Shown here: piece by piece, positions 24,782 through 36,518 of the stretch
Numbering within the stretch: position 1 is the first letter of the stretch
Layout: every line of letters starts with the position of its first letter
Origin: Candidatus Poribacteria bacterium
GTDB taxonomy: Bacteria > Abyssobacteria > SURF-5
Length of the DNA: 57,048 nt
NCBI GenBank assembly: GCA_016215705.1
Contig: JACRIR010000075.1
Location: 1 to 57,048, forward strand
Reading direction: 5' to 3'
Notes under the pieces: model-generated
What the model was told of the DNA's origin: nothing
Seen by the model: the letters and a program-made list of their open reading frames with translations, nothing else
Database searches by the model: none
Translations under genes and position numbers: made by a program

Positions 24782-26163
24782 ACACCGTGCACATGCCTGA
24801 AATAGGCTTCAGAGCAAGGTATCATCGTCACGAACCACCGTCATTCATACAGCGAACCGTATATCGTTGTGCATGTTCCATCCGGGCTGTGCGCTGCTCC
24901 GACACCTCGAGAATCACGGACTTTCACTCCTTCATAAGAGTCAGATACAGGTTTCGCGCGAATGACGCTATGTTTGGAGCGCTCTTCTTGTGCGTGTGTG
25001 CGTTGTGGCTCGGCTTTGCATTCGCGCCAAAGTCCGGCTGGGCGCAAGAAGATGAAAACGTGACCCTTCGTGAGAATGTGCCGTCTGTCCCCGAGGAGAT
25101 AACCCGGACGAAGTTGCGTGACGCCAGAGAAGACGGGTTCTCGTACTTGACGGAAGCATGGACGTTCTTCGGAGTAGACACCAATGTCTTCCGTAGCCCG
25201 CACGGACTCGAGGAAAGCGCCGCCTATGTCAATACGGGCGCGCAGGTGATCACGAACTCGCGCTTCAAGGACGACAGCAGCCTGACAGGTCGATTAAGAG
25301 TGGACACCACCCGGTACGACGGACATGACAGCGCGAATGTGGGCCGTTTCAGACTGGGTGGCTCGTATTCAAGACCCTTGACCGAGAATACCGCCCTCGA
25401 CATCGACCTTCGCGTCCGGTATAGAAGCAACGACGCCACTGATATCTTCGGAGAGAGTTTCGAGCGCAATTTCGCATACTGGGCGTATGACGCAGGAGCT
25501 ACATATCTGTGGGATGTCACGAGCAAAAGCCTGGTGGGAATTGGCGGCGAGTTCACCTTCAAGGACTATGTTGAAACACCCGGACTTAATTCTCTCGATT
25601 GGACGCAGCCGGGAGTCAACGCATACTATCGATATCGCTTCGGCAAAAGGCACTACCTCAGACTTGCGTATTGGTTCGAAATACAAGAATTCAAGGAAGA
25701 GCCGGCAAGTCTGGCGGACGGAACCGAACTGCCGACAAATCCCGACGAAAAACACCGACGGCATGAAGTAAGCGCTCGTTACTCGGTGCCCCTGGGCAAT
25801 AAGTGGACCGCTCACATCGAGTATGACTTTGAAAGAAAAAAGGACTTGTTCGAGGATTTCGAAAGCTTCGACCAGCATTCAATTTCGGGAAGCGTCGTCT
25901 TTGCCGCAACAGAAAACACACGGCTTGAGTTCGACTCCGAATATACTATCAAGGATTTCGACAAGAGACTTGCTGACGGAGACGACCGTCTCAATTACGA
26001 CAAACTGGTTCTCGCCCTGACAGTCGAGCATGCATTGCGCGATTACCTGTCGCTGTACGGCACAGCCGGGTACTACTTCCGCAATAGCAACAAGAGCGAA
26101 GGCACTACATTTAGGGACTTCGAAGGAGCAATTTTTTCGGTCGGCGCAAGCTTGTTCTTCTGA
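24778..26163 (+). CDS. Outer-membrane beta-barrel protein
   Basis: A protein of 461 codons whose export signal begins only at residue 65 (MFGALFLCVCALWLGFAFA, ending GWAQ). Behind it is a series of amphipathic strands ending in GASLFF, the C-terminal Phe expected for BAM substrates. Many strands alternate aromatic and polar residues (YFRNSNKS, RFGKRHYLRLAYWF). The 24778 ATG has a strong GGAGGT five bases upstream and overlaps the TPR stop, whereas the ATG at 24970, right before the signal peptide, has no clear ribosome site. The functional start may be 24970, with coupling through the overlapping ATG. Function is unknown, but co-expression with the TPR protein suggests a shared export or assembly role. 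Confidence 0.75.
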   Translation: MNTVHMPEIGFRARYHRHEPPSFIQRTVYRCACSIRAVRCSDTSRITDFHSFIRVRYRFRANDAMFGALFLCVCALWLGFAFAPKSGWAQEDENVTLRENVPSVPEEITRTKLRDAREDGFSYLTEAWTFFGVDTNVFRSPHGLEESAAYVNTGAQVITNSRFKDDSSLTGRLRVDTTRYDGHDSANVGRFRLGGSYSRPLTENTALDIDLRVRYRSNDATDIFGESFERNFAYWAYDAGATYLWDVTSKSLVGIGGEFTFKDYVETPGLNSLDWTQPGVNAYYRYRFGKRHYLRLAYWFEIQEFKEEPASLADGTELPTNPDEKHRRHEVSARYSVPLGNKWTAHIEYDFERKKDLFEDFESFDQHSISGSVVFAATENTRLEFDSEYTIKDFDKRLADGDDRLNYDKLVLALTVEHALRDYLSLYGTAGYYFRNSNKSEGTTFRDFEGAIFSVGASLFF

Positions 26164-26166
26164 AAT

Positions 26167-26196
26167 TTGTAATGCAGCGAAACCATGTGCTATATT
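26167..26196 (+). promoter_or_regulatory. Promoter of ubiD, probably leaderless
   Basis: TTGTAA (26167-26172), an 18-base spacer and TATATT (26191-26196). The ATG of ubiD is at 26204, where transcription would begin. GGA at 26197 is too close to be a convincing ribosome site. Confidence 0.5.
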
Positions 26197-26203
26197 GGAA
26201 AAC

Positions 26204-27649
26204 ATGGCGTATCAAGGACTAAGTGATTTCATTTCCGCTCTCGATCGTGCGGGCGAGCTTAAGCGGATTCGCGTCCCGGTGTCAGCCGAACTCGAGATAA
26301 CCCAAATAGCGGACAAAGTGTCGAAAGCCAACGGACCTGCGCTCCTGTTCGAGAACGTGGCCGGTCATTCCACCCCGCTCCTCATCAATGCCTTCGGCTC
26401 CACTAAACGGATGGCGATGGCGCTCGGCGTCGAAGACGTCAACGAGATTGGCCGCGAAATCGAAGAAATCCTGCGTCTGCCGCTGCCTGTGGGTATTGTT
26501 GAAAAACTGAAAATGATCCCGATGCTGGCGCGGTTCGCAAAGTTTCCGCCGAAGTCGGTCTCTGCCGGCCCATGCCAGGAAGTGGTCACGGAACAGCCGT
26601 CTCTCTCCTCCTTCCCCATACTGAAATGCTGGCCGCAGGACGGCGGAAAATTCATCACGCTGCCGATGGTGTTTACAAAGAGTCTGCTGAACGGGCGCCG
26701 CAACTGCGGCATGTACCGTATGCACGTCTATGATGAGAAAACCACCGGCATGCACTGGCACGTACACCACGACGGGGCCCGGCATTTCCGCGAACACAAA
26801 AACGCCGGCAAACGGATGCAGGTTGCCGTTGCCCTCGGCAGCGACCCGGCCGTCACTTATGCGGCCACCGCTCCGATGCCGCCGGACATAGACGAGATGC
26901 TGTTCGCGGGATTCCTGCGCAAGAGACCCGTCGAGATGGTCAAATGCAAGTCTGTCGACATCGAGGTCCCGGCGGACTCGGAGATAGTGCTCGAGGGCTA
27001 CGTGGGCCCGTCGGAAGAGCGGACGGAAGGACCGTTCGGCGACCACACGGGTTACTATTCGCTTGCGGACAAGTACCCCGTCTTCCATATCCAATGCATC
27101 ACGCATCGCAAGAATCCCATTTATCCGACCACTATCGTCGGCAAACCTCCAATGGAGGACTGCTACATGGGAAAAGCGACCGAGCGCATTTTCCTTCCGC
27201 TCGTTAAGACTCAGATTCCCGAACTGGTCGATATGAATCTACCTCTCTTCGGAGTGTTCCACAATTACGCTTTCATCTCGATTGACAAACGCTATCCCTA
27301 TCAGGCGAAGAAGGTGATGCACTGCGTTTGGGGCCTCGGGCAAATGATGTTCACGAAGATAATCGTTGTCGTCGACAAGGATGTCAACGTCCAGAACGTA
27401 GAAGAAGTCCTCTGGCGGGTCGGCAACAACGTGGACGCCCGACGCGATATCACCATCGTTGACGGCCCCGTCGACGTTCTCGACCATGCGGCCCCTCTTC
27501 CGCGCGCCGGCTCGAAAATGGGTATTGACGCCACAAAGAAATGGCCCGAGGAAGGCCACACGCGCGAATGGCCGGACGAAATCAAGATGACGCCGGAAAT
27601 CATACAGATGGTCGAGCGGCGCTGGCGTGAGTACGGATTCGAGAGATGA
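26204..27649 (+). CDS. ubiD: UbiD-family decarboxylase (menaquinone or ubiquinone branch)
   Basis: A 481-residue prenylated-FMN-dependent decarboxylase. Signatures are NCGMYRMHVYDEKTTGMHWH, the Arg-rich HHDGARHFREH, the EGPFGDHTGYY acidic active-site loop and PPMEDCYMGKATERIFLP. It needs the cofactor made by the UbiX-like protein two genes on. With UbiE, UbiX and UbiA homologues in one operon and no chorismate-to-4-hydroxybenzoate enzyme nearby, it probably acts as the MqnL-type decarboxylase of the futalosine menaquinone route (inference). The ATG at 26204 is chosen since earlier in-frame starts overlap the barrel gene. Its last four bases overlap the start of ubiE. Confidence 0.9.
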   Translation: MAYQGLSDFISALDRAGELKRIRVPVSAELEITQIADKVSKANGPALLFENVAGHSTPLLINAFGSTKRMAMALGVEDVNEIGREIEEILRLPLPVGIVEKLKMIPMLARFAKFPPKSVSAGPCQEVVTEQPSLSSFPILKCWPQDGGKFITLPMVFTKSLLNGRRNCGMYRMHVYDEKTTGMHWHVHHDGARHFREHKNAGKRMQVAVALGSDPAVTYAATAPMPPDIDEMLFAGFLRKRPVEMVKCKSVDIEVPADSEIVLEGYVGPSEERTEGPFGDHTGYYSLADKYPVFHIQCITHRKNPIYPTTIVGKPPMEDCYMGKATERIFLPLVKTQIPELVDMNLPLFGVFHNYAFISIDKRYPYQAKKVMHCVWGLGQMMFTKIIVVVDKDVNVQNVEEVLWRVGNNVDARRDITIVDGPVDVLDHAAPLPRAGSKMGIDATKKWPEEGHTREWPDEIKMTPEIIQMVERRWREYGFER

Positions 27650-28350
27650 AAGACGGCCGACAAATCCGCTCGATGTTCGCTTCAATTTCACGCCGGTACG
27701 ACTTGCTGAATCATCTGCTGAGCCTCAATACCGACAAACGCTGGCGAAAGAAGACCGTCGAAGCGAGCGGCCTTAGAGGTGGTGAGAGGGTCCTCGACGT
27801 CTGCACGGGAACCGCCGACCTCGCTCTTGCCTATGCCAACGCCATTGGCCCGGCCGGAACAGTTGTCGGGACCGACTTCTGTCCCGAAATGCTGCACATA
27901 GGGAAACGGAAAGCTGCGTCAGAAAAGCTTCCCTGTAAAGCATCCCTCATGGTCGCCGACACTCTCTCGCTTCCATTGGCGGACGGGCTCTTCGACGTTG
28001 TCTCGGTCGCATTCGGGATAAGGAACGTCGCCGATTTGAAAGGCGGAATCGGCGAAATGGCGCGGGTTGCGAAGCGAGGCGGCCGCGTCGTGATCCTAGA
28101 GTTCAGCCTGCCTGATAACGGACTGCTCGGCGGAATGTATATGCTATATTTCACGCGCGTGCTGCCGATGATCGGGCGCATCGTTTCGCGCGCTCGCAAC
28201 GGCGCGTACTCGTACCTGCCCGATTCCGTCTTGAAGTTTCCCTCGAAAGAAGAGATGTGCGCAGTGATGCGTGAATGCGGGCTGACGGAAGTTACGACGA
28301 CAACGCTCAGCTTCGGGATTGCAACGCTTTACGTTGGGAGAAAAATGTGA
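27646..28350 (+). CDS. ubiE: UbiE/MenG demethylmenaquinone methyltransferase
   Basis: A 234-residue UbiE/MenG methyltransferase. It starts in the ATGA overlap with ubiD. Signatures: IRSMFASISRRYDLLNHLLSLNTDKRWRK, motif I VLDVCTGTADLAL, VGTDFCPEML, ADTLSLPLADGLFDVVSVAFGIRN and PKGG-like AKRGGRVVILEFS. It methylates the ring as the last step of menaquinone (or ubiquinone) synthesis. In this anaerobe-looking context menaquinone is more likely. Length is typical for the family. Confidence 0.92.
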   Translation: MKDGRQIRSMFASISRRYDLLNHLLSLNTDKRWRKKTVEASGLRGGERVLDVCTGTADLALAYANAIGPAGTVVGTDFCPEMLHIGKRKAASEKLPCKASLMVADTLSLPLADGLFDVVSVAFGIRNVADLKGGIGEMARVAKRGGRVVILEFSLPDNGLLGGMYMLYFTRVLPMIGRIVSRARNGAYSYLPDSVLKFPSKEEMCAVMRECGLTEVTTTTLSFGIATLYVGRKM

Positions 28351-28357
28351 GGCCGAC

Positions 28358-28942
28358 ATGCAAATAATAGTCGCCATTACCGGCGCAAGCGGCGCGCCGT
28401 ATGCCATAAGGTTGATCCAGGCGCTGGTTGAAGAAAAGCTCGAAGTGCACGTCACCATCTCCGCTGCGGGCGCGCGCCTGTTGAAACACGAAATGGGCAT
28501 TGCCGTCGATCTCCGGAATTTCTCCGTGAAGTCTCTCCTCGGTAAAACCACGACCCGCGTCGTCTACTACCATCACGACTATATCTCGGCGCCGATCGCA
28601 AGCGGCACGTTTCCGATTGACGCAATGGTGGTGGTTCCCTGCAGCATGTCGACGCTCGCGGGAATCGCGGCGGGGCTGGGAAACAATTTGATTCTGCGCG
28701 CCGCCGACGTGACACTCAAGGAAAGACGCCCTCTGATACTGGTTCCGCGCGAGACGCCTCTCGGCTTGATCGCAATCGAGAACATGGCAAGCGTGACGCG
28801 CGCCGGCGCATGCGTCCTGCCGGCAATGCCGGCGCTCTACAATCGGCCCAAAACGGTGCAAGAGATGGTTGATTTTGTCGTCGGAAAAATCCTGGACCAG
28901 TTGCATATCCGCCATGAACTTTTCCGGCGGTGGGGTGAATAG
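28358..28942 (+). CDS. ubiX: UbiX-like flavin prenyltransferase
   Basis: A 194-residue flavin prenyltransferase. GASGAPYAIRL begins the Rossmann-like fold. APIASGTFPIDAMVVVPCSMSTLAGIAAG and RPLILVPRETPLGLIAIENM line the FMN and dimethylallyl phosphate sites. It synthesises prenyl-FMN for the adjacent UbiD. The ATG at 28358 gives the family length; earlier in-frame codons overlap ubiE. The operon order ubiD-ubiE-ubiX-ubiA is compact until the repeat that separates it from ubiA. Confidence 0.93.
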   Translation: MQIIVAITGASGAPYAIRLIQALVEEKLEVHVTISAAGARLLKHEMGIAVDLRNFSVKSLLGKTTTRVVYYHHDYISAPIASGTFPIDAMVVVPCSMSTLAGIAAGLGNNLILRAADVTLKERRPLILVPRETPLGLIAIENMASVTRAGACVLPAMPALYNRPKTVQEMVDFVVGKILDQLHIRHELFRRWGE

Positions 28943-28948
28943 GAGATG

Positions 28949-28990
28949 TTCCCCCCTTTGCAAAGGGGGGTTAGGGGGGATTTACCCCTT
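28949..28990. repeat. CCCCCCTTTG...AAAGGGGGG palindrome repeat
   Basis: A short palindrome (CCCCCCTTTGCAAAGGGGGG) continues into a GGTTAGGGGGGATTT motif, a sequence type dispersed in many bacterial genomes. It separates ubiX from ubiA. In-frame readings of it upstream of ubiA are not part of that protein. Confidence 0.75.
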
Positions 28991-29054
28991 TGGCCGCACA
29001 ACTCAATCTTATCTGCGCAACTCAGTTTTCCGGAACGCGCCAACGACATCATAC

Positions 29055-29918
29055 ATGAAACAACTCTTTGCGAAAATCGCCACTATCCTAGAGATGATAA
29101 AATTCTCACATACGCTGTTTGCGCTGCCGTTCGCGATCATGAGCGCATTCCTCGCCGCCGGAGGATTGCCCTCGGGCCGCCAATTGCTTTGGATACTCGT
29201 GTGCATGGTCGGCGCCCGCAGCGCTGCGATGTCGTTTAACCGGATAGCCGATGCCCGCTACGACGCTCTCAATCCGCGAACCTCTCAGCGGGCCATCCCG
29301 ACCGGCAAGCTGACGGTCGCGGAGACGGCGGCATTCATGCTCGTCATGATGGCGCTGTTCGTGTTTTCGGCCTCCCGACTTAATCGACTCTCGTTTGCGC
29401 TTTCACCGGTGGCCCTCGCGATTATCCTCGGCTACTCATACACAAAGCGGTTCACATATTATTCGCACTTCGTGCTCGGCCTCGCGCTCGCCATCGCGCC
29501 GGTCGGCGCATGGATAGCGGTAACAGGAAGTCTCAGTCTTGTGCCGCTGCTTCTCGGGTTGGCCGTGTTGCTCTGGACCTCGGGCTTCGACATAATCTAC
29601 GCCTGCCAGGACTTCGAGTTCGACAAACGGGTCGGCCTCCATTCGCTGCCCGGACGGCTCGGCATAACCCGGGCGCTCGTGCTTTCGGCCATTCTCCACG
29701 CAGCTATGGTTATCGTTCTGATGGCAATATTCGTAGTCGCCCACATGGGCAACGCATTCCTGGCCGGCGCCTTCCTTGTCAGCATTCTTCTGGTATACGA
29801 ACACGCGATAGTCAAACCGGGCGACCTTTCCCGCGTCAACGCCGCCTTCTTCAACGTGAACGGCGCTGTCAGCCTGCTCCTTATGGCTCTCACTATTGCC
29901 GATATAGCAATGCGCTAA
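29055..29918 (+). CDS. ubiA: UbiA/MqnP-type polyprenyltransferase
   Basis: A 287-residue membrane prenyltransferase with several helices. The first Asp-rich motif is NRIADARYDALNPRT, near residue 65. The second is DIIYACQDFEFDKRVGLHSLP, near 180. These bind polyprenyl diphosphate through Mg2+. The ATG at 29055 begins the family-like MKQLFAKIATILEMIKFSHTLFALPFAI. The enzyme attaches the side chain to 4-hydroxybenzoate or, in the futalosine pathway, to dihydroxynaphthoate. The neighbours favour the latter. Shine-Dalgarno is weak, possibly because the repeat was inserted upstream. Confidence 0.9.
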   Translation: MKQLFAKIATILEMIKFSHTLFALPFAIMSAFLAAGGLPSGRQLLWILVCMVGARSAAMSFNRIADARYDALNPRTSQRAIPTGKLTVAETAAFMLVMMALFVFSASRLNRLSFALSPVALAIILGYSYTKRFTYYSHFVLGLALAIAPVGAWIAVTGSLSLVPLLLGLAVLLWTSGFDIIYACQDFEFDKRVGLHSLPGRLGITRALVLSAILHAAMVIVLMAIFVVAHMGNAFLAGAFLVSILLVYEHAIVKPGDLSRVNAAFFNVNGAVSLLLMALTIADIAMR

Positions 29919-30696: not shown

Positions 30697-31260
30697 TCGC
30701 GCACTCCTGTCCAAGATAACCAACAGTAATGTCACGAATCTTGTGAATCCGGTGTCTTTCGGGATATCTCGTAAGACCAGACCTTCCAGTCCACGACCTT
30801 CGACCTTCGGCTGCTGACCGAACAGTAACAGCGTTGATTGCGGCTTCGCTTCCTGCGTCCTCCTTACTCACATTCTTGAATGACGGATTTCAAAAGTGAA
30901 ATCGTTTCTCGGTAGCATGGAATATGTCACCTCATGCTTGAAACCTTCGTAAGTAGCAGAACAGCACTGAGTTATGCATCAAACGCACAAGCGCTGCAAG
31001 CCACCATAAAGTCTAGGCACGGAAAATGCCTAAATAGTTAAAGGAATAATGTCTAATGACTAAGTAATCAGTTTCCTGATTCCTATGACGCATTTTGTAG
31101 GAGCGGTCCGCGACGTATCTTGTAGGAGCGACCCGCCGCGTTGCCCTTACGGAGGTTGGGCGGATACGTCATCGTATCTGGGAGAATGTGTACTAAGGAG
31201 GAAAACCTTCTTCCACAATCGTAGGGTTGCATTGCGTTTTCTGGTAGGGAAGCTGATGAC
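30697..31260. other. Intergenic region upstream of the VWA-FHA genes
   Basis: About 560 bases without a gene. Near 31096-31140 there is a doubled TTGTAGGAGCGGTCCGCG / TTGTAGGAGCGACCCGCC motif, a dispersed repeat type. I saw no consensus promoter close to 31261, although a GGAGG run (31197-31202) precedes the coding region by 60 bases. Confidence 0.6.
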
Positions 31261-33669
31261 ATGATGCCACAGTCCGCGCAAAAGGCAACTCGGTCGCTGG
31301 GCGTTTGTTGCCTGGCAACGCTGCTCCTCTCTTCTGTCTGTTTCCCGGCCTATGCCGCGAAGAATCGGGATTTCATAGTTGTCATGGACATAAGCACAAG
31401 CATGGCCGATATCTTCGACAAGGCGAAAGCGGAAGCCAAGCAGTTTGTCTCCTCGGCGCAGTTGGAAGACAGGGTCATAGTCATAACATTCGGAAAGTCG
31501 TCACGCCTTCTTGATCGCACTCGTGTGAAGTCCACCTTCGATATCGCCAGAATCCTGTCCGAAATAGACGAGCTTCAGCCCACCGAATTGAGTTCAAACC
31601 TGACATCCGGCATGGAGCAAGGTCTGGCCGAAATGGAAAGATCATACGGAACAGACCCGGGCACGGAGCGAATCATGATGTGGCTGAGCGACGAGAAGAG
31701 TAATCCGCCGAAAGACATTCCGAATCTTATTACGTTTGAGACATTGAAGCAGCGCGAGAAGGCCCGGGTGCCTGACCATGCATGGTTCGCGTTCCATGCC
31801 CCGATCCAGCCGAAGTCCGAATCGGACGTAAAATGGTTCGTGGACTGGGCCTCCCGGCGGAAGATGCAACTAAAAGCGACCCTCACAACAAGCGACCTCG
31901 GTACGCTCTCTCCGAAGGAAACAGAGAATGAGTTTAACGTTAGATTCGAGCCCGACACGATGGCGGTCTGGGGCACGTCTTTCTCCGTCGTCGCCGAGAT
32001 GCGCGACAAGAATAGAGGAGCGTATTCGGCAAATGTTCCGGTCTCGCCCTCGACAATCATATGCAACGGCAGACCATGGGATCAGCGGTTTCGAATCACG
32101 TTTCCCGAACGATCCGGCGAGTATGTGTGCGCCATAAGTTTTGTCCTGCCTTCCGACAAGAGTCTCGAAATCTCACCGTCACAGGTATCGCTCAAGGGGT
32201 CGGTCCAGCAGGAACTGACACCCGAGGAACAAGAGGCCGAGGACGCAGCCATTGCCGAGGCGGCCCTCAGAAATAACCCCTCGGCGCAATTGGAAGACCT
32301 GGTTCATTCGAGGTTGCCGCTGGAAACTGCGCTCGGCTCTTTTCGCAGACAGATAGTCAGAGACGCAAAGGGCCAGATCAAGTCCGGTCCTCCTCTCAGT
32401 GTCGTATTCGGTCCGATAGTGGAAGGCGGCCGATACCAGCAGAGCATCTCGCTTACACTATCAGAAGACATCCCGATTGATTCGATAGGCCTGAAAACCA
32501 ATCTCGAGCTTCCGGAAGGAATCGAACTAAAATCGAAATACACAATGAAGGAAGGGCAGTTGGTCGCCGACATCTCCTTGCTGGCATGGAGACTACCCCC
32601 TTGGGCCGAAGATTGGGAAGCGAAAGGGGCAATATCGTTCTTCTCAAGCGTCGAGGGCGCTGAAATCCGCCCGGCCGCTGTTCCCGCCCGGATTTATACC
32701 AGGAGCGAAACGTCACTGTGGGGAGAAGACGGATTCTCTCTTTCTGCCACCAGCGGGATTATAGGCAGACTCTTTGCATTCGTGCGGCGTCACGTTGTGA
32801 AAACGTCCGAGTTCCTCATCGTAATAATGCTCCTTCGGCTCGCATATCGCCTCGCAAGACGACACCTCTTCCGTCCTACCGAGCTTGTCGGAACTCTCGA
32901 ACCCATCAAAGACCCAACCGGCGGGAAAATACGATACTACAACCTGAGCCGCATGGGCAAACAAAAGATAGCGAATGCAATAACCATCGGGAAGAGCAAA
33001 AAAGCCGATATCGTGCTGAACCGCCCGACTATCTCCGAAATGCACGCGGAGATAACCGCCGCCCGGACCGATGCCGGCGCCATAGTATTCATAAAACCAC
33101 TCAACAAAAACCATGTGAGAATCAACGACGTTGCCTACACCTGCCAGAAGGAAATCAACGACAAGGACGTCGTCACCATCGGTGACTGCGTGTTTCGTTA
33201 CGTCCGGCCCGAGATATACAGGGAAACCATACTCAACTTTGTCAATGGCAAATCGGCGCGAGGCTCTCTCCTTTCATGGAGCGCCGACACTTCCTCTTTC
33301 GAATTCGTGCCCAGGGGCGCGCCTTCATTCGATTCAAAAGTTGTCGTGAACTTCTCCACCCTTAAAGCGATGTCATTTGTGCGCAAGGAAAGACCGTCTT
33401 CATTCGAGCGCCTCAGAGGCTTGTTCACGAACGGCGCCGGCCGGCCTGTCGAGATTCTCTTCAAAGATGGGCAGGTGCTCGAGGGCTCCATGGTAAGCGA
33501 GAATGGAGAAACGAGCAAGCGGTTCTACGTCGTTCCGAAAAACAGCGGAGAAACCGCGCTCATGCTTGTCGAACGCGCCGCCGTACAGGCGATCTCCATG
33601 CAGGAGCCCATAAAAAAACGCCTTTTCAGAGTCGGTCGCATGTTCGGAGCTTCCAACGGCCAGGCATGA
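31261..33669 (+). CDS. VWA - TM - FHA transmembrane protein, copy 1
   Basis: An 802-residue protein. Signal peptide 1-32 (PAYA). Von Willebrand A domain (about 37-200) with the MIDAS motif DISTSM (D43, S45, S47). A beta-rich extracytoplasmic region (200-500) follows. One TM helix lies at about 515-531, then basic RLARR. A cytoplasmic FHA-like domain (570-650) carries AITIGKSKKADIVL and ISEMHAEI. Two C-terminal beta modules (655-705, 728-778) share the pattern F-x-DGxxxxG...F-xxxP...V-xxLKA/AVQAI. Metal-dependent extracellular binding and cytoplasmic phosphothreonine recognition would be joined through one helix. The canonical FHA Arg is Lys (K578). No kinase gene is adjacent. The gene is paralogous to the next one. 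Confidence 0.85.
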   Translation: MMPQSAQKATRSLGVCCLATLLLSSVCFPAYAAKNRDFIVVMDISTSMADIFDKAKAEAKQFVSSAQLEDRVIVITFGKSSRLLDRTRVKSTFDIARILSEIDELQPTELSSNLTSGMEQGLAEMERSYGTDPGTERIMMWLSDEKSNPPKDIPNLITFETLKQREKARVPDHAWFAFHAPIQPKSESDVKWFVDWASRRKMQLKATLTTSDLGTLSPKETENEFNVRFEPDTMAVWGTSFSVVAEMRDKNRGAYSANVPVSPSTIICNGRPWDQRFRITFPERSGEYVCAISFVLPSDKSLEISPSQVSLKGSVQQELTPEEQEAEDAAIAEAALRNNPSAQLEDLVHSRLPLETALGSFRRQIVRDAKGQIKSGPPLSVVFGPIVEGGRYQQSISLTLSEDIPIDSIGLKTNLELPEGIELKSKYTMKEGQLVADISLLAWRLPPWAEDWEAKGAISFFSSVEGAEIRPAAVPARIYTRSETSLWGEDGFSLSATSGIIGRLFAFVRRHVVKTSEFLIVIMLLRLAYRLARRHLFRPTELVGTLEPIKDPTGGKIRYYNLSRMGKQKIANAITIGKSKKADIVLNRPTISEMHAEITAARTDAGAIVFIKPLNKNHVRINDVAYTCQKEINDKDVVTIGDCVFRYVRPEIYRETILNFVNGKSARGSLLSWSADTSSFEFVPRGAPSFDSKVVVNFSTLKAMSFVRKERPSSFERLRGLFTNGAGRPVEILFKDGQVLEGSMVSENGETSKRFYVVPKNSGETALMLVERAAVQAISMQEPIKKRLFRVGRMFGASNGQA

Positions 33670-34094
33670 ACCTGGCATCCCTGAATCCGCACAATCTGCG
33701 AAATCCACGGATTCCCCTGACTTTTTATCTCATCGCTTGACTCTTCATCATTTTTCGCATATGCTGCGGGTGGGACATTTTTGCCCGGAGTGTTCAAAAA
33801 AAGGCTCATCCGCTGAAGCAGCCAATCTGGAGTCTGTGAACGTAACCCGCTGCCAATACAAGACTTAAAACTAATAGATTCATAAGATAAGACCCTCGAT
33901 TCATTCGGCACAGAATATGCCAACATACCAATGAATACGCCATTGAATTCATTCTGGCGCGCCGTCACAATTATTTTTGTGGGTATGGGCGCATGGGTCT
34001 TCTTGGCCTGGCTTTCTCAAAGTTGCCGATGGCGGGCCAGTCTCTCTAAGCGCATATTTACGTATCAGTGCCTTTTCTATTTGGAGTGTTGTCG
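33670..34094. other. Spacer between the VWA-FHA paralogues
   Basis: 425 bases with no coherent frame. It contains the promoter at 33737-33765. A repeat-like TTTGCCCGG...AAAAAAAGGCTC stretch follows. A GTG-started frame from 34068 reads into copy 2, but the ATG at 34095 is better supported. Confidence 0.6.
33737..33765 (+). promoter_or_regulatory. Sigma-70 promoter ahead of VWA-FHA copy 2
   Basis: TTGACT (33737-33742), exactly 17 bases, TATGCT (33760-33765). It would produce a leader of roughly 320 bases. Copy 2 can therefore be expressed apart from copy 1. Confidence 0.6.
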
Positions 34095-36518
34095 ATGAGA
34101 GCGGAAGTATTTCCTGGAATGACTGGAAGGCGCTTTCACATCGCTCTCTTCGCCTTCCTGGTGATATTCCTGATCTCTTCCTCGTGTCCAAAAGCCTATG
34201 CCGCGAAAAACCGCGACCTGATCGTGGTCATAGACGTGAGCACAAGCATGAGAGACATCTTCGACGACACGAAGAAGGAAGCCAAACAATTGATCTCGTC
34301 GGCGCAATGGGGCGACAGAGTCACGCTGATAACATTCGGGCGCTCTTCCCGCCTGCTTGAGCGCGCGCGTGTGAAATCCTCGTATGATACGGCAAGGATA
34401 TTGTCGACGATAGACAATCTCGAGGCCACGGAGTTCGACACGAACCTCTCATCGGCTATGGAACGCGGACTGGAAGAAATGCGCCAGTATTATCAAGAAG
34501 CTCCGGACGCAGAGCGCGTGATGATGTGGCTCAGCGATGACAAAAGCAATCCGCCCAAGGATGTTCCGAATCTCATCACCTTCGAGGTATTGAAACAACG
34601 AGAGAACGGGCAGTTGCCGGATAACGGCTGGTTCGAGTTCAAGGCTCCTATAAAATCCGAGGTCGAATCGGATGTCAAATGGTTCATCGATTGGGCCAGT
34701 CGCCGCCAAAAAATGCAATTGAAAGTGGCGGCCCCCATAAGCGACGCAGGAACTGTCTTCACATCGAATCCGGAGGCGGAGCTATATGTCCAATTCGATC
34801 CGGAATCAAAGGCCGTGTGGGGCACGTCGTTTTCCGTCGTGGCAGAATTGATCGATCAGAATGACAAGTCTCGTTCCGTGAAGATTCCGGTCAACCCTGC
34901 CGTGGTCATCTGTTCCGGAACAGTGTGGACCCAGAAGATTCTCGTCAAGTTGCCCGACAAACCCGGCAATTACGATGTGAGGTTGAGCTTCCTCTTGCCT
35001 TCGGACAAGCTGCTTGAAATCACGCCGCCGCAAGCGCTGTTCAAAGCCAGAGTCGAGCGCGAGACGGAGATTGCCGACGCGCAGGGCGCCTCTGCCGACG
35101 ATGTCATTTCCGCTGCCTACCGGGAAGGCGCGCATAAGAACTCGGGAAGAGAGTCGTCGTTTGAGCGAAAAATGCGGACTCAATTGATTAGGGATTTGGA
35201 ACAACAAAGACGCGAACAACCGTCGGCAAGAGAGAACGTCGAGTTTGGCCCGATATACGGCGGCTCTGAGTATCAACGAAGCATACCTTTGTCCATGAGC
35301 AGAGGTATCCCTCTCGATACGATCCACATGAGAACCAACTTCCAACTTCCGGGCAGCCTCAAGCTCACACCCAGCTTCCGAATTTCAGAAGGAAAACTGT
35401 TCGTCGACCTGTCCTTGAACGCAAAGGAGTTCGTCACCACCACCGACGGATGGGAAGTGCGCGGAAGTCTGTCCTTCTTCTCTTCTGAAGAAGACGTTAA
35501 CATCACCCCGACGGATATTCCCGCAAGATTCTACAGCAAGAGCGTTCAGTGGCGATGGGGTAAGCAGGAACTCGTTGTGGCCGCCGAAGGCAAACAGGGA
35601 GACGACATAGTCCCCGGAGTCGTGGCATTCGTGAAATCAATTGCCCCAAGAGCAGGAAAAGCGCTGGCCGTTATTCTCGTCCTTTGTCTTGTCTACTATC
35701 TCACGATAAGATACTGGTTCGCTTCGACACATCTCGTAGGAACGCTCGAAATCGTCAAGAATCCTATGGGCCGCAAGCGAAGATACTTCAACTTGTATCG
35801 TCTCGGCAAGCGCAAGAAGGCAAATTCGCTTACGATCGGAAGCAGCAGCAAGGCCGATATCGCGCTGCCCCATGCCTCAGTGGCCGACATACATGCGACA
35901 ATAACGACGGCAAGCACCGACGCGGGTATCATCGTCTTTGTTCGCCCCTGCAACGGCAGCCGCGTGCTGGTCAACAATGTTCCATACTCTCGTCAGAAAG
36001 AGATTGGCGACAAGGACACGCTCACCATCGGTGATTGCGTATTCGTTTATACTCGTCCGGAACTCTACCGCAAGACGGTCGTCTGTTTCGCCGACGGCAG
36101 AACGATCCGTGGCTCCCTCGTCTCGTGGGATATCGATGCGCCCAGCTTCGAATTCCTTCCGCACGGAGCGCCTTCGGTCGACGCCAAAATGGTCATTTCC
36201 TTTTCCGAACTCAAAACGGTCTCTTTCATTCGCAAAAACACTCGCTTCTCGCTCGACCGCTTCTTGAATGCCGGCAATGGAAAAGGCAGCCGCAATGTCG
36301 AGATCATTTTCAAAGACGGCGACCTGATCGAGGGCCGCATCGTTGGCGAATCCGGCGAGTGGGACAAACGCTTTTACCTTTCTCCAAAGGACAACGAAGA
36401 GGTCGGGCTGGTTCTCGTCGAGCGGGCGGCAGTTCAAAACATATTCACACAGGAGACGATCGAGGAGCCGTTTATCCATATCCGCCGTGCGCTGCGCATG
36501 CTAACCGGCCGCCCATAG
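34095..36518 (+). CDS. VWA - TM - FHA transmembrane protein, copy 2
   Basis: An 807-residue paralogue of the preceding protein, with the same order: signal peptide (1-37, AYA), VWA with MIDAS DVSTSM (D47, S49, S51), an extracytoplasmic beta region and one helix (VILVLCLVYYLTI region, about 530-548). It continues with FHA (SLTIGSSSKADIALP, VADIHATI) and the two C-terminal modules (CFADGRTIRGSL..., VEIIFKDGDLIEGR...). The FHA Gly-Arg is Gly-Ser here, while the HATI histidine is kept. The ATG at 34095 has GGAG eight bases upstream. Conserved IVVMDIS and WLSDxKSNPPKDxPNLITFE blocks show that both copies are under selection. Separate promoters allow different expression. Confidence 0.85.
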   Translation: MRAEVFPGMTGRRFHIALFAFLVIFLISSSCPKAYAAKNRDLIVVIDVSTSMRDIFDDTKKEAKQLISSAQWGDRVTLITFGRSSRLLERARVKSSYDTARILSTIDNLEATEFDTNLSSAMERGLEEMRQYYQEAPDAERVMMWLSDDKSNPPKDVPNLITFEVLKQRENGQLPDNGWFEFKAPIKSEVESDVKWFIDWASRRQKMQLKVAAPISDAGTVFTSNPEAELYVQFDPESKAVWGTSFSVVAELIDQNDKSRSVKIPVNPAVVICSGTVWTQKILVKLPDKPGNYDVRLSFLLPSDKLLEITPPQALFKARVERETEIADAQGASADDVISAAYREGAHKNSGRESSFERKMRTQLIRDLEQQRREQPSARENVEFGPIYGGSEYQRSIPLSMSRGIPLDTIHMRTNFQLPGSLKLTPSFRISEGKLFVDLSLNAKEFVTTTDGWEVRGSLSFFSSEEDVNITPTDIPARFYSKSVQWRWGKQELVVAAEGKQGDDIVPGVVAFVKSIAPRAGKALAVILVLCLVYYLTIRYWFASTHLVGTLEIVKNPMGRKRRYFNLYRLGKRKKANSLTIGSSSKADIALPHASVADIHATITTASTDAGIIVFVRPCNGSRVLVNNVPYSRQKEIGDKDTLTIGDCVFVYTRPELYRKTVVCFADGRTIRGSLVSWDIDAPSFEFLPHGAPSVDAKMVISFSELKTVSFIRKNTRFSLDRFLNAGNGKGSRNVEIIFKDGDLIEGRIVGESGEWDKRFYLSPKDNEEVGLVLVERAAVQNIFTQETIEEPFIHIRRALRMLTGRP

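Follow-up and report, generated by a model that had tools for sequence, protein, structure and literature searches.

The two tandem genes analysed here belong to a new protein family, built from known parts, in which a VWA domain, a membrane helix, an FHA domain and a DUF6982 domain follow one another in a single chain. The family is multi-copy and, within the genomes searched, phylum-restricted, and its FHA site looks remodelled rather than decayed. We read it as a membrane receptor or tether with a phospho-independent docking platform in the cytoplasm, and assign this reading a probability of about 0.5. The window, by which we mean the whole analysed stretch of 57,048 nucleotides, is one contig, C257, in a draft assembly of 5.47 Mb (G000) from a relative of Candidatus Abyssobacteria. 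The first-pass annotation had described the two genes as a possible signalling pair; its observation is confirmed and its interpretation is partly supported. The pair itself is not special: judged by their sequences, the window genes arose by tandem duplication in one clade, and the family as a whole has about ten paralogues per genome.

Domain organization of the two proteins

Both open reading frames, with the positions and lengths first assigned to them, are confirmed on the forward strand. Copy 1 (P0001, 802 residues) occupies 31261..33669 and copy 2 (P0002, 807 residues) occupies 34095..36518, with a GTG at 34068 as a possible alternative upstream start for the latter. The proteins are paralogues along their whole length, with 49% identity over 792 columns, and they do share one domain order, as had been proposed. 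The Pfam profiles exceed their gathering cut-offs in copies 1 and 2, respectively, with scores of 39.4 and 45.4 bits for VWA_2 (VWA domain, PF13519/PF00092; cut-off 27), 36.4 and 28.9 bits for FHA (PF00498; 20.7), and 28.3 and 35.9 bits for DUF6982 (PF22478; 24.5). An NCBIfam profile search of both proteins returned VWA matches only, all of them sub-threshold. The sequence search for solved relatives gave none of use, and the best for DUF6982 was LSm4 with an E value of 0.18.

In copy 1, a hydrophobic, signal peptide-like segment ending in AYA-A (31261..31359; hydropathy peak at residues 12–30, sequence inspection) precedes the VWA domain (31366..31884; Pfam, alignment). A weak predicted membrane helix with an internal Arg (32794..32856; hydropathy 1.3–1.4) is placed by its homology to copy 2, and is followed by the FHA domain (32887..33216; Pfam, pocket table) and by the two small β modules of DUF6982 (33217..33609; Pfam PF22478).

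The AlphaFold model of copy 2, built from an alignment of 21 sequences, has a mean pLDDT of 74.8 and a pTM of 0.29, so that single domains can be read from it and their mutual orientation is unreliable. The chain begins with a signal helix (residues 11–29) in a signal peptide-like segment (34095..34205; hydropathy 2.06), which is followed by the VWA domain (residues 40–212; 34212..34730), assigned by Pfam, the model, its fold match and its conservation. Two β regions (residues 217–321 and 382–480), modelled as β-sandwiches and predicted to be extracytoplasmic, lie with a helical linker at 34731..35537. A single long helix that contains the membrane segment (residues 507–541; 35613..35717) then leads to the FHA domain (residues 548–657; 35736..36065) and to two five-strand modules (residues 660–785), which form DUF6982 (36066..36455; Pfam, separate model).

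The first-pass annotation had staked its proposal on an FHA fold and on a membrane helix between the domains. The FHA fold is present: in VIA-align, copy 2 matches solved FHA domains of the OdhI/GarA kind with Z values up to 16.0 (6i2r, 4qcj). The helix is clear in copy 2, where the 19-residue hydropathy reaches 2.15; copy 1 has a weaker one (1.34, with the internal Arg), so the claim stands firmly for the second protein and less so for the first. The signal segment and the one helix together would place the FHA and DUF6982 domains in the cytoplasm; the positive-inside charges, at 2.7 vs 3.1 per side, do not decide the topology. A PADLOC search for a role in anti-phage defence gave no match.

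The two C-terminal β modules had been listed as separate copies of a small domain. There are indeed two, and both together constitute one known Pfam family, DUF6982. Modelled alone from 65 sequences, the domain reaches a pLDDT of 85 and a pTM of 0.78, better than in the full-length model, and each module folds as a five-strand barrel. The modules weakly resemble Sm/Hfq proteins, with a Foldseek probability of 1.00 and TMt values of at most about 0.6, but with E values of 0.006–0.03 and Z ≤ 4.9; tandem Tudor domains rank beside LSm/Hfq among these weak matches. Outside Abyssobacteria, DUF6982 occurs mostly as stand-alone proteins of about 130 residues, and otherwise in proteins of 320–390 residues before TPR-like repeats. 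The latter (L211–L217, L025 and L178) carry a TPR-like C-terminus and an N-terminus that is PilC/GspF-N-like or B-box-like, and the B-box type is found in Abyssobacteria too. Our literature search found no paper on DUF6982. If the reading preferred here is right, this widespread domain gains a membrane-linked setting in which it can be tested.

The two genes are separated by 425 bp, a gap that would allow a promoter. The suggestion that copy 2 has its own promoter is not upheld, however: there is one sigma-70-like consensus match on the forward strand (33737..33765), and the region holds three matches vs 3.4 ± 1.9 in shuffled sequence, which is not above chance. About 150 bp 5′ of copy 1, the direct repeat TGTAGGAGCGRYCCGC occurs twice, 25 bp apart (31096–31136); it is absent elsewhere in the genome and is a possible regulator site.

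VWA metal site and conservation of the protein ends

The VWA domain carries the metal site that had been ascribed to it. In copy 2, the MIDAS motif DxSxS...T...D is complete (D47-S49-S51 at 34233–34247; T116; D148 at 34536–34538), and in copy 1 it is complete except for Ser in place of the MIDAS Thr, with the DISTS motif at 31387–31401 and Asp144 present. Across the aligned family, D-x-S is found in 21/21 members, while the third Ser and the distal Asp are each found in 18/21; the distal Asp is missing in the three proteins of the C209 clade. The VWA domain of copy 2 matches the inter-α-inhibitor heavy chain (6fpz) with a Z value of about 14, and its fold matches also include the integrin VWA.

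Within the window clade, the VWA domain shows 56% identity, and the FHA and DUF6982 domains show 51–52%, compared with 18–23% for the linker and membrane region. Since the cytoplasmic domains are nearly as conserved as VWA and the region between them has diverged, both ends of the protein are under constraint. This bears on the possibility that the proteins are adhesins or envelope tethers without a signalling role, in which VWA would grip a partner outside the cell and the domains inside would do no more than anchor the protein. The conserved MIDAS, the fold matches to inter-α-inhibitor and integrin VWA, and the lack of any enzyme in the chain are all consistent with such a role; conservation of FHA and DUF6982 at the level of VWA goes beyond the needs of a mere anchor, and some family members are linked to kinase and cyclase genes. 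We therefore regard a purely adhesive function as unlikely.

The FHA pocket compared with ordinary FHA domains

To describe the FHA site, we compared 22 family members with 26 ordinary FHA domains from three Abyssobacteria genomes. The ordinary domains were picked with a loose G-R / SxxH-like pattern among the FHA loci that scored best; the high Arg count of this set (26/26) is thus partly due to selection, but the low count in the family (3/22) is not. The Ser of the SxxH motif is present in 25/26 ordinary domains vs 5/22 family members, and its His is kept in 18/22 of the family. The complete R+S+H+N pocket, whose Asn belongs to the SxNG motif, is found in 25 of the 26 ordinary domains and in none of the 22 family members (Fisher p ~1e-12, a descriptive value since the sequences are related). 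In copy 1, the pocket reads K-S-H-N, with Lys578 replacing the Arg and both the Ser and the His of SxxH kept; in copy 2, it reads S-A-H-N, with Ser583 (35841–35843) replacing the Arg and AxxH replacing SxxH. The loss of the key Arg noted at the outset is therefore correct in both copies.

The pocket has not simply lost residues. Residue 593 of copy 2 (35871–35873) is a His shared by 19/22 family members and by 0/26 ordinary FHA domains, in which Asp or Asn is nearly always found at this place; in the same numbering, Ser595 is conserved in 18/22 and Asn627 in 22/22 members. By alignment, His593 would lie beside the old phosphothreonine pocket. Copy 1 departs from the family at this position, where it has Arg. 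Because this new surface is conserved, the pocket appears to have been remodelled and not randomly decayed. The cytoplasmic FHA domain is altered and probably phosphate-blind.

The first-pass annotation had proposed a cytoplasmic phosphopeptide reader and had asked for conserved pocket residues; the 0/22 count tells against it. In its full form, that proposal would have the altered pocket still binding phosphothreonine, phosphoserine or another phosphate and coupling an outside ligand to kinase signalling. Three members retain the Arg. Copy 1 still has Lys, Ser, His and Asn in the old pocket positions, which makes it the likeliest of all members to keep some phosphate binding, so residual or altered binding may persist in parts of the family. 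Each genome also has about 16–24 Hanks kinase matches, and two family branches are kinase-linked. Set against these points are the scarcity of the pocket Arg and SxxH Ser, the absence of a complete pocket from every member while nearly all ordinary domains have it, and a window locus without a kinase. Phosphorylation-dependent reading is, in our judgement, quite unlikely. It would be a mistake to take every FHA domain for a phosphothreonine reader: throughout this family the pocket is lost, yet the fold persists and another surface is conserved.

Family distribution

The window genome holds about ten paralogues, counted from FHA matches in frames of 750–880 residues, matches to P0001 and DUF6982 matches. 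Two of them contain a FecR-like domain (C4b by Pfam, C209 below the cut-off), and one (C56) has no VWA match. Our phylum sample consists of the window genome and two others (G001 and G002), which carry family members too. The tree groups P0001 with P0002 as sisters (93/89), and their nearest neighbours in it are G001:C122 and G000:C4a. The remaining clades mostly contain a single gene per genome, and several of them lie in neighbourhoods conserved across two or three genera.

In a whole-genome search of 386 genomes with alignment A5, the full architecture was absent from the 383 other genomes, and a search with alignment A6 found it in none of 68 genomes of one further phylum. In a collection of 84,980 genomes, scanned by motif so that distant members could escape, the window-clade alignment A4 gave no relative, and A5 gave one full-length relative, in Candidatus Abyssobacteria SURF_17, and otherwise DUF6982 alone. 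The VWA–membrane–FHA–DUF6982 architecture is thus, within the genomes searched so far, restricted to one uncultured deep-subsurface phylum. The claim that it was undescribed holds in the open literature that we searched, which contains no description of a VWA-TM-FHA fusion, and VWA, FHA and kinases all go unmentioned in the Abyssubacteria paper (PMC6121073).

Gene neighbourhoods and kinase linkage

The examined genes near the window pair encode quinone biosynthesis proteins, an ATG22-like transporter, a rhodanese and a response regulator, and the search for neighbours conserved across the window clade gave none. Just 5′ of the pair (26030–29918) lies a quinone biosynthesis cluster composed of UbiD, a UbiE/MenG-type methyltransferase, a UbiX-like flavoprotein and UbiA. 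In another family clade (L019:3831-12116, L170 and L171), the neighbourhood is conserved in three genera, with two FAD-dependent oxidoreductase-like genes on the 5′ side and a small lipoprotein-like gene and a DUF4139/DUF4140 gene on the 3′ side.

The co-occurrence with kinases that had been asked for is found elsewhere in the family: the window contig gave no Ser/Thr kinase (Pkinase) match, but two other branches are kinase-linked. In the C119/C131/C135 clade, represented in all three genera, the family gene is followed by a Ser/Thr kinase gene with a PQQ/BamB propeller and then by an alkaline phosphatase gene with a lipoprotein-like start (L022:2860-8783, G000:C119; L168:8304-14174, G001:C131; L169:2468-8514, G002:C135). 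This clade has the most divergent FHA of the family, with no Pfam FHA match. At G001:C13 (L174:8670-15841), a VWA-FecR-FHA-DUF6982 gene overlaps a CHASE2-cyclase-Ser/Thr kinase gene, which is followed by an FHA-GAF-cyclase gene; this adjacency is not common to its G000 relative. Assuming about 4,500 genes, chance kinase adjacency would be expected about 0.04–0.08 times per genome.

These loci could be taken further, to a phylum-specific transmembrane co-receptor whose FHA domain, through its remodelled pocket, in which Ser replaces Arg and a His has been gained, would dock Hanks kinases without phosphorylation, and whose MIDAS VWA ligand outside would recruit or gate the kinases inside. We hold this specific version of the docking reading to be doubtful.

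The neighbourhoods also bear on whether the proteins could be structural ring or scaffold subunits of an envelope machine such as YscD/PrgH/MxiG, with FHA serving oligomerisation. Like PrgH, each would be a single-pass protein with a cytoplasmic FHA domain lacking the phosphothreonine site (PMC3635987), and Yop-YscD_cpl (PF16697) appears among the sub-threshold Pfam matches. Its scores, however, are 24.2 bits in copy 1 and 17.4 bits in copy 2, short of the cut-off (33.2) and lower than the 31.2 bits that an ordinary FHA protein reaches. There are no secretion genes among the inspected neighbours, and the neighbourhood differs from clade to clade, which makes a ring subunit improbable.

Proposed function

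In the reading that we prefer, each protein would act as a receptor or tether that spans the inner membrane once, and its family would have expanded in Candidatus Abyssobacteria. Outside the cell, VWA on its β-sandwich stalks would use the MIDAS metal ion to bind a ligand, probably a protein or polymer that bears carboxylates. One helix would span the membrane. Inside, the FHA fold, with its phosphothreonine pocket replaced by a different conserved surface, would form together with the double, weakly Sm/SH3-like DUF6982 module a phospho-independent dock for cytoplasmic partners, and might thereby pass a signal across the membrane. In the two kinase-linked branches, the partner would most likely be the Hanks kinase of the adjacent gene; for the window pair, it would be encoded elsewhere in the genome. 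The two window proteins probably differ in ligand or partner specificity and are not two halves of one device. If this is correct, a single chain directly joins an integrin-like metal-site binder on the outside of a bacterial cell to an FHA scaffold inside, and an uncultured subsurface phylum has amplified this link to about ten copies.

Comparison with known systems

The closest VWA/FHA team is ArnA (FHA) and ArnB (vWA) of Sulfolobus acidocaldarius. In both cases a VWA domain with an intact MIDAS is combined with FHA, and the Arn pair is kinase-regulated (PMC6509490, PMC12852372). The ArnAB structure 8s05 also ranks among the best fold matches of the window protein. ArnA and ArnB are, however, separate proteins with an intact phospho-site that regulate archaellum expression (PMC6509490), whereas the window proteins are predicted to run as one chain across the membrane and have lost the pocket. 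In the bacterial conflict and signalling systems centred on VWA (MoxR-vWA and others), VWA likewise occurs in signalling modules, in some cases alongside kinases or FHA (PMC7159879); these are built on MoxR AAA+ partners, none of which is among the annotated neighbours here.

For the cytoplasmic part, precedents come from secretion systems. The EssC FHA domain of type VIIb secretion likewise lacks the phosphothreonine site and docks on the EssB pseudokinase (PMC11217815), but it is attached to an FtsK-like ATPase, with no VWA and no DUF6982. YscD, PrgH and MxiG are inner-membrane proteins with a cytoplasmic FHA fold in which the phosphothreonine residues are poorly conserved, and mutation of the would-be phosphothreonine residues of PrgH leaves secretion unaffected (PMC3635987); unlike the window proteins, they are T3SS ring components without VWA. 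Finally, the stand-alone DUF6982 proteins of Desulfobacterota, Nitrospirota, Acidobacteriota, WOR-3 and others share the same two-module domain, whereas the window proteins combine it with VWA and FHA.
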